64,000 nucleotides of DNA, taken from contig VGLJ01000012.1 of the NCBI GenBank assembly GCA_016866775.1, positions 1 to 64,000 of the forward strand. The letters run 5' to 3'. Source of the stretch: Candidatus Rokuibacteriota bacterium (GTDB lineage Bacteria; Methylomirabilota; Methylomirabilia; Rokubacteriales; CSP1-6). This document shows, piece by piece, positions 8,510 to 10,867 of this stretch (within the stretch, counting starts at the first letter, position 1; each line of letters opens with the position of its first letter). A program made the translations under genes and the position numbers. Under the pieces are notes generated by a model. It was not told where the DNA came from, searched no databases, and worked only from the letters and a program-made list of their open reading frames with translations.

Positions 8510-10455
8510 CTAGACCGAGGCGAGCACCGTGTCCCGGCGCGCGAGGTTTTCCGCGCGCGCCGCCGCCTTCTTCAGCCACCGCGCATAGCACGGCATGGGG
8601 AGCGCGAGCGCGGTGAGCTTCGTACCCTCGCGGTAGATCACCCGCGCCGCCTCGAGGTCCGCGAGCGCAGCGGCGACGCGGCCCGGATCGAGGCCCGTCC
8701 GTTCCGAAAGGCGCTCCTCGAGCACGATCTCCCGGAGGAGCGCCGCATGCACCGCCGCGTGGTCGGGGCCGAACGTGGAGATGACGGGTTCCGTGGCGTA
8801 GCGGGTGTCGCGAAAGCCGATCCCCTCCGCGCTGGCCTCGAACGCGAGCGCCGGCATGCGCGCCAGGTGCTCCTTGCGCCAGTGGTGGAGCTGGTACACG
8901 AGCACGTCGAACTGCCGCTGGAGCGCGGCGGGATGGGATACGGGCGCTCGAACACGTAGCAGTACTGGTCGAGGCTGAAGCCCGTCTCCGCGCGGAAGTC
9001 GTCCGAGAAGATCATGTGATAACGCCCGTCGGCACGGAGCGGCGGCGTGATGCCGAAGCGCGACGGGTCCGTGTGCATCGGCGCGTACCGCGTCGTCAGG
9101 ACGGGCACGTACGTGGTCGGCGGCGTGAGGTGGTAGAGCAGCGGAATGCGCCGGCACAGGTCGCGATAGTCCTCCAGATCGTCGCCGGGGAACGCGTAAA
9201 GGATGTTGTAGAAGATCGTCACCTCCTGCTCCATGAGGAGCCAGAGGGTGAGCACGTTCTGGATCCCCGTGACGCCCTTCGCCATCTTCCGGAGCACCGG
9301 CGTCGAGAACGATTCGATGCCCGGCTGCACGCGGTCGATCCCCGCCCGGCGCATGATCCGCACGTCCTCGGACCGGACGTTCGCCTTCATCTCCCAGTGC
9401 AGGACGTACGGCGGCTCCTCCTTCGCGAGCTCGGGCAGGAGCGTCGCGTAGTAGGCGCGCGGGAGGATGTAATCCGAGAACCGGAAGCTGCTGATCCCGT
9501 GCCGGTCACGGAGCGTGGCGAGCGTCTGCCGCGTGCGCGCCGGTGACTTGAAGCGGTAGCGCATGGTCTCGTCGTCGATGCCGCAGAACGTGCAGTGCGA
9601 CACCTGGCCCCACCAGCAGCCGCGCGAGCTCTCGAGCGGCAGGTCGCACGTCTTGATCGCGACCGCGTGGTCCGCCGCGAGCCGCGCGACGTCGTCGAAC
9701 CAGTCGCGGTAGTCCGGAATCGGGCTCATGTCGAGGTCGATCGGGGCGGCGGGCGCCGTGCGGCGGATGTCCCCGGCCGGCGTCCGGAACGAGAGGCCCC
9801 GCACGTCCGCGAGCCGCGCGCGGTCCACCGAGGCGCGCGCGAGTGCCGCGATCTTCTCCTCGCCCTCGCCGTGGCAGACCGCGTCGACGAACGGAAACGC
9901 GCGCAGCAGCATCGGCCCGACCGGCAGCTCGACGGCGTAGCCGCCGAGGACGATGAGCTTGTCGGGATGCTTCGCCTTGATCAGCTTCGCGAGCGCCAGC
10001 GACGCGATCGTCTGGTCGAACATGCACGTGAAGCCGACGAGCGTCGCGTCGGACGCGTCCACGACCTTGAGGCAGTCCGCGAGGAACTTCGGCACGATCT
10101 CGTCGCGGCACGTGAAGGCGAAGTCGACGTAGCGCGCGAGGTCGACCTCGCCGCGCGCGCGCAGGTCCACCTGCCCGTACGTCTCCGCCAGCATCGCCCG
10201 GAGCGCCTCGCGCTGGTCGGGCGTCACCGCGACGCCCTGGAGGACGTTCGTGAAGCGGAAATCGTTGAGCCCGTAGTTCGCCGACAGCGCTTCGTACGAC
10301 TCCGGACGCAGGTACTGCAGCAGCAGGAGATTGAGGTGGGCCACCCGGTTCGGGATGCCGGCGTCCTCGAGCGCGGCTTTCAGGATGCCGAGCCCGAGCG
10401 ACGGCTCGAGGAACATCGTCCACGGCATGCTGAGGAGGAGGACGCGCGGGCGCAC
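8510..10455 (-). CDS. B12-binding radical SAM RiPP-maturation C-methyltransferase (rSAM_ocin_1 / PoyB-PoyC-like), one frameshift
   Basis: The N-terminus (VLLLSMPWTMFLEPSLGLGI) and the VGFTCMFDQT / LIVLGGYAVEL region form a cobalamin-binding domain. The radical SAM core carries GCWWGQVSHCTFCG around residues 278-290, that is C-x7-C-x2-C instead of the usual C-x3-C-x2-C; this spacing is known for RiPP C-methyltransferases of this family. Near 8935 the frame shifts at a run of C and resumes as AALQRQFDVLVYQLHHW, ending at TAG 8510. One missing C would restore about 648 residues, the family's usual size, so I read this as an indel. GTG start, 16 bp after the small gene at 10472, suggesting they are co-transcribed. 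Confidence 0.75.
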
Positions 10456-10471
10456 GACGCGCGGGCCTGGA

Positions 10472-10867
10472 CTAGAGCTTCTGCCCCCTCGCCGGCGAAC
10501 GGTCGACGATCGACTCCGGGTCGCGCTCGCTCTTGATCACGACCGCGATGCCGACGACGATCACGGCGCCGCCGACGACGGCGATGATGCCCACCGCGAT
10601 GGAGATCGTCTTGCGCTCCTCCATCTCACCCATGATGTACGGGTGCAGGTTCGCCGTCCGGGCATTGAACGTCCTCGCGTAGAGATGGTCCAGCAGCTCG
10701 CCGGTGTCCGTCTCGGCGAGGCGCCGCTCGGCATCGTCCGACAGGCCCAGGCCGAGGCGTTGCGCGATCTCGCGAGGACGGCCGCGGACGTCGTCGAGGT
10801 AGCGGCCGTCGAGCAGGACGCGATCCAGGAGGGTGTCGATCTCGTCGTGAACGGTCCCGGGCGTCAT
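10472..10867 (-). CDS. candidate RiPP precursor / small membrane protein
   Basis: A 131-residue protein with a strong Shine-Dalgarno (GAGGAG). Residues 6-52 look like a helical leader of the Nif11/nitrile-hydratase/Franean type (VLLDGRYLDDVRGRPREIA, then LGLGLSDDAERRL). Residues 87-111 are a run of Ile, Val, Ala and Gly (ISIAVGIIAVVGGAVIVVG), followed by a charged tail. It sits directly before a B12-radical-SAM C-methyltransferase, which in proteusin pathways modifies Val/Ile-rich cores. I infer a precursor peptide. The plain alternative is a single-pass membrane protein, and no cleavage motif is certain. Confidence 0.5.
   Translation of the reverse strand: MTPGTVHDEIDTLLDRVLLDGRYLDDVRGRPREIAQRLGLGLSDDAERRLAETDTGELLDHLYARTFNARTANLHPYIMGEMEERKTISIAVGIIAVVGGAVIVVGIAVVIKSERDPESIVDRSPARGQKL

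Follow-up and report, generated by a model that had tools for sequence, protein, structure and literature searches.

A probable two-gene peptide-modification cassette combining an Os1348-type precursor with a B12-binding radical SAM enzyme

Positions 8510-10867 on the minus strand of the window (the whole stretch of DNA analyzed, 64,000 nucleotides) hold a gene for a small protein with a long hydrophobic run followed by a gene for a cobalamin-binding radical SAM enzyme, and the question raised by this locus is whether two such genes form a modification pathway by themselves. A preliminary description had proposed a pairing of precursor and modifying enzyme, and the neighbourhood-conservation check that it called for showed the pairing to be kept in relatives of several phyla. 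Together the two genes make up one copy of a rare unit that is present in at least five bacterial phyla. We consider the locus likely to be a peptide-modification cassette consisting of a RiPP-type precursor with a dedicated B12-binding radical SAM C-methyltransferase. The gene pairing, the protein families, the domain order and the conserved anatomy of the cassette are computed results.

The precursor-like protein

The small protein (P0001; 10472..10867, minus strand) starts with ATG, with GAGGAGAGG 4 nt upstream, and has the 131 residues, the leader-like helical part and the 25-residue run exactly as first described. Its layout is an N-terminal helical domain (residues 6-52; 10712..10852, minus strand), then the run and then a charged tail. 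The run, T87-I111 (TISIAVGIIAVVGGAVIVVGIAVVI; 10535..10609, minus strand), lies in the last third of the protein, consists of Ile, Val, Ala and Gly plus one Thr and one Ser, contains no Leu and is a putative core and/or membrane segment; it is followed by KSERDPESIVDRSPARGQKL. The conserved C-terminal tail (ESIVDRSPARGQKL; 10475..10516, minus strand) has the family pattern [VI]xD[RQPV]..G/S..[KR][hydrophobic], with Asp122 invariant in 13/13 members. The other invariant positions in the family alignment are E9, V17, D20, G21, P31, S43 and A46.

By itself P0001 was below every curated cut-off. A profile of 12 relatives, with the window left out, matched it at E = 1.8e-14; the next-best of the 707 window ORFs reached 0.42, and the best shuffle out of 2000 reached 0.59; the other strong window match, orf452, is the P0001 frame extended upstream. 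Two marginal matches from a single-sequence search of 195 genomes (L008, L009) overlap ABC-transporter and other unrelated frames and were dropped. A promoter/terminator scan of the window locus found nothing.

The N-terminal domain appears to be an Os1348-type leader related to the nitrile-hydratase-leader clan, an assignment supported by profile matches and a structural model. NF038399 (Os1348 family NHLP clan) matched P0001 with 14.1 bits (E 0.036), under its curated cut-off of 40 bits, and matched 10/13 precursors at E <= 0.1 (best 3.2e-7). The AlphaFold2 model was confident over much of residues 10-55, with pLDDT >90 over much of the domain, and contained a hydrophobic helix. The top PDB matches of this model in Foldseek were three chains of 6lk7 (Os1348; probability 0.92-0.96), which are supportive only, because their E-values were 0.3-0.4; the top sequence match of P0001 was also 6lk7 (E 0.33). 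Of the leader families suggested in the preliminary description, the nitrile-hydratase-leader clan was thus borne out in its Os1348 branch, whereas neither a Nif11 nor a classical NHLP family matched P0001 above cut-off. TIGR03793 (classical NHLP/proteusin) gave no match to P0001 and matched 1/13 members at E 0.017.

Half of the relatives have long precursors (276-288 aa), in which there is an additional N-terminal domain and the Os1348-like repeat occurs a second time as a weaker copy. The extra domain, the first ~110 residues in the precursors of L040, L042, L043, L044, L049 and L053, carries a conserved ILFxGGDGGGL...DDGGFTCGSTGKPPxPxPWPP, and no Pfam or NCBIfam match above cut-off was seen for it.

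The radical SAM enzyme and its interrupted frame

The enzyme gene (8510..10455, minus strand) begins with a GTG at 10455, 16 nt after the P0001 stop. Both this gap and the C-x7-C-x2-C motif had been reported correctly; the motif (CWWGQVSHCTFC; 9583..9618, minus strand) reads C280-WWGQVSH-C288-TF-C291, and its three cysteines are invariant in the family alignment. A suggested search with TIGR03975, curated as RiPP maturation radical SAM C-methyltransferase, placed the enzyme firmly in that family, the in-frame 5' part alone scoring 440.8 bits against a cut-off of 281.85. The radical SAM domain (PF04055) scored 36.2 bits, and the B12-binding domain (PF02310; residues 126-205; 9841..10080, minus strand) scored 32.1 bits, exactly at cut-off.

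The gene runs from 10455 to 8510 solely via a one-base frameshift, which the preliminary description does not mention. TIGR03975 model positions 1-488 lie in the 5' frame and positions 502-606 in a different frame ending at 8510, which holds the last ~138 codons (8510-8926); at 8918..8937 (minus strand) the family alignment switches between the two frames, and no residue is missing at the junction. Relatives on full contigs have one open frame, whereas the window enzyme has no intact full-length frame. The frameshift may be a real mutation, in which case the enzyme may be broken, or an assembly error. A programmed frameshift is not proposed, as no slippery heptamer was seen by eye at 8918-8937. 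Both halves keep the family conservation, and all family-invariant columns are intact, including the three cluster cysteines.

An AlphaFold2 model of 8513-8926 (138 residues; pLDDT 88.5) comprised a helix, three strands, three helices and a hairpin, and within it a winged-helix domain (8609..8848, minus strand, shifted frame) shows the beta-beta-beta then alpha-alpha-alpha order by which an RRE is defined (PMC12710340). Foldseek matches of this model were general winged helices, with no solved RRE among the 50 matches listed. Given the RRE order of the model and the C-terminal RRE fusions reported for proteusins (PMC7470986), it is plausible that this domain binds the leader.

Distribution and relation to known systems

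The in-frame part of the enzyme, searched against 84,980 genomes, returned 16 loci, 12 of them 43-51% identical and coming from Bacteroidales, Massilia, Duganella, Pseudoduganella, Jannaschia, Roseococcus, Rhizohabitans, Armatimonadota and an unassigned MAG. The phyla beyond the window's own are Bacteroidota, Pseudomonadota, Armatimonadota and Actinomycetota. The pair was found in 12 further genomes, with the precursor solely beside the radical SAM gene (one locus, L048, is cut at its start and another, L050, is divergent). Wherever these loci include upstream sequence, the upstream ORF was precursor-like, 150-288 residues long, and its end lay between a few and a few tens of bases short of the enzyme gene; the more distant L050 had a similar arrangement.

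The precursor profile detected exactly one copy in 11/13 cassette genomes, always adjoining the enzyme; the remaining two were a truncated contig and a divergent genome with two pieces of one ORF. It matched 1/388 relatives (the window itself), 3/295 in the Massilia family and 1/251 in the phylum Armatimonadota. One of the Massilia family pairs (L069) was new and was found from the precursor profile alone, with the enzyme ~10 nt away. No lone precursor was found in the genomes searched with this profile (13 cassette, 388, 295 and 251), so that small proteins occurring mostly apart from a radical SAM gene, named beforehand as a result that would speak against the pairing, were not seen. TIGR03975 was above cut-off in 5/195 genomes around the window, the other four lying outside its class, and the cassette was absent from the other searched genomes of the window's order and class. 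These counts make the pair rare and patchy, and the cassette has probably moved horizontally. Phylogenetic analysis placed 14 cassette enzymes in one clade (100/100; branch 1.49), with the window in a subgroup (93/93) with short precursors and Oxalobacteraceae in both subgroups; the window enzyme has the longest end branch of the clade (0.99). A plasmid search returned TIGR03975 enzymes only at <= ~35% identity and therefore of other subfamilies.

The preliminary description had left a choice between a minimal and a split pathway. The former stands, as two genes are the rule, and the latter is not supported, because the relatives are equally bare, with no protease, exporter or epimerase common to their neighbourhoods; the locus is better read as a stand-alone two-gene cassette. 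In the window's own genome a search with TIGR04517 (PoyD-type epimerase) gave no match, but the control set gave none either, which makes this negative uninformative, and none of 82 ABC matches passed the TIGR03796 cut-off for an NHLM exporter with peptidase domain; the best of them lack the N-terminal part, as they start at model positions 145-190. Besides the pair, no gene was common to the loci except a small membrane protein (~188 aa) directly downstream of the enzyme in two Bacteroidales (L039, 2812-3378; L041, 3398-3961), possibly an accessory or immunity/export gene.

In Ruegeria, an Os1348 protein adjoining a TIGR03975 enzyme is already on record in public annotation; the pairing of Os1348/NHLP with TIGR03975 is thus known, and the present cassette is a variant within it. 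The Ruegeria sp. B32 pair (WP_260066427/WP_260066426) likewise has an Os1348-type leader gene and then a B12-binding radical SAM gene, 6 bp apart and with no other RiPP genes. Its precursor (85 aa), unlike those of the cassette, lacks the Val/Ile run and the DRSG-type tail, and its enzyme is 33% identical to the window enzyme and falls outside the cassette clade. Polytheonamide-type proteusins (PoyB/PoyC) share the Cx7Cx2C B12-binding radical SAM enzyme, a Val/Ile-containing core and a reported C-terminal RRE (PMC11285071, PMC7470986). The cassette differs from them in having no adjacent epimerase, N-methyltransferase, protease or exporter, an Os1348-type rather than classical NHLP leader, and a conserved tail after the hydrophobic run. 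Clusters of Nif11, epimerase and TIGR03975 on Sinorhizobium/Rhizobium plasmids likewise combine a TIGR03975 enzyme with a Val-rich C-terminus but have Nif11 leaders, several precursor copies and an epimerase, and their radical SAM enzyme is 29.5% identical. On one of them, a conjugative plasmid of Sinorhizobium meliloti (L073, 202-561), several Nif11 precursors, the translated one ending in VVTVVVVVV, adjoin a radical SAM epimerase and a TIGR03975 gene in a polytheonamide-like arrangement. Os1348 of Pseudomonas sp. Os17 (PDB 6lk7) appears to share its fold with the P0001 leader, and its cluster contains acetyltransferase, peptidase-like and SagB-type genes and no radical SAM gene (PMC7726476). 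TvgB, which forms cyclopropylglycine from Val, is also a radical SAM enzyme acting on precursor Val but belongs to the peptide-modifying subfamily, whose members have as many as three [4Fe-4S] clusters, and acts on a precursor with a repeated TVGG motif (PMC9062424).

A literature search for TIGR03975 or Os1348, with most subscription papers outside its scope, yielded no paper on the present subfamily. We know of no biochemical result for the cassette enzyme clade. The cassette marks out a small subfamily of B12-binding radical SAM peptide modifiers, scattered across the phylogeny, whose gene set could not be simpler: a substrate with a folded leader and a hydrophobic segment plus its enzyme.

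Likely target of the enzyme and an adjacent dehydrogenase gene

By analogy with its family, TIGR03975, and with PoyC, the enzyme's most likely reaction is C-methylation of aliphatic residues in its partner; PoyC also carries the Cx7Cx2C motif and adds beta-methyl groups to Ile3 and Val5/10/21 (PMC11285071). The small protein would be the substrate, with its Os1348-type domain as the recognition part and its Val/Ile segment and conserved tail as the modified part. The enzyme would bind the leader, probably via the RRE-like winged helix, and with its [4Fe-4S] cluster and methylcobalamin would methylate unactivated carbons of aliphatic residues, for which the Val/Ile run is the likeliest site. 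A membrane-seeking peptide or protein would result, and any cleavage and export would fall to enzymes encoded elsewhere. Leader binding, C-methylation, target residues and membrane role are all inferred. Val-rich ends accompany other TIGR03975 enzymes too, as in Sinorhizobium, but, counting against this reading, the TIGR03975 partners in Ruegeria and at L013 have no Val-rich core.

The composition of the run bears on this point. In the strongest hydrophobic 19-mer of the precursors Val averaged 33%, Ile 20% and Leu 5%; in 64 control membrane segments, taken from ORFs at the same loci, the corresponding figures were 19%, 8% and 22% (V+I 53% in the former, 27% with sd 9 in the latter), and 0/64 controls had >= 50% V+I with <= 2 Leu; this is a moderate argument, because the controls are few and may include non-coding frames. 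The run differs among relatives in sequence and length and is less conserved than the tail, not the usual pattern for a variable core, and the tail could be a follower or itself the target. It is conceivable, if somewhat unlikely, that the enzyme modifies the tail and that the run is a membrane anchor only: the tail motif, in which the invariant Asp is followed by R/Q, S/G and, ahead of the final hydrophobic residue, a basic one, is kept across phyla, and there is one precursor copy per genome; the product would then be a single small structure conserved like PQQ or mycofactocin. The Leu-poor, Val/Ile-rich run is, however, unlike ordinary anchors, a conserved tail is equally explicable as a recognition follower, and PoyC acts on Val/Ile. 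We also doubt that the partner escapes cleavage and remains a membrane protein, C-methylation serving to harden or tune its segment; this would be protein maturation rather than natural-product synthesis. The missing common protease or exporter, the long two-repeat precursors and the lack of any conserved GG-type cleavage site in the precursor alignment would fit such an uncleaved partner working in place, with side-chain C-methylation as a means of tuning the membrane helix, but a protease or exporter could be encoded outside the neighbourhood, and the closest annotated kin are RiPP precursors.

That P0001 is an ordinary single-pass membrane protein beside the enzyme by chance is very improbable and already mostly refuted by the pairing conserved across phyla, the profile match to P0001 and the further pair L069. 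Its hydrophobic helix and a DUF2929 match (E 0.0012) point that way, but the match was below cut-off and found in 1/13 members, and as it was not common to the relatives this identity was dropped; no other match to a membrane family, foreseen as a contrary outcome, appeared. The window pair may more seriously be a decaying remnant with an inactive enzyme, a reading to which we give real weight without favouring it. The frameshift, which deprives the enzyme of its proper C-terminal domain, counts against the cassette reading and fits decay, and the long end branch and the isolation of the pair within its order and class agree with decay, whereas the conservation kept in both halves does not, and a single-base assembly error would look identical. 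For the C-methyltransferase cassette that we favour, intact copies in named isolates, e.g., Massilia timonae and Duganella, make the proposed chemistry on unactivated Val/Ile carbons directly testable by two-gene co-expression.

The divergent neighbour of the pair (10934-12001, plus strand) is a Zn-dependent alcohol/threonine-dehydrogenase-like gene with an in-frame TGA at 11060-11062, exactly at the catalytic zinc-ligand Cys (ACGI-TGA-GTD). Rfam matches for a SECIS were at chance level only, and folds were not clearly better than those of shuffles. Text searches of a 2026 review did not show this dehydrogenase family listed (PMC13188914). Among the nine other close homologues (80-91% identity) in the same family, eight have one in-frame TGA (the same codon in the seven checked) and one has TGC, and the window genome contains a tRNA-Sec above gathering score. 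The dehydrogenase probably uses selenocysteine as a catalytic Zn ligand.
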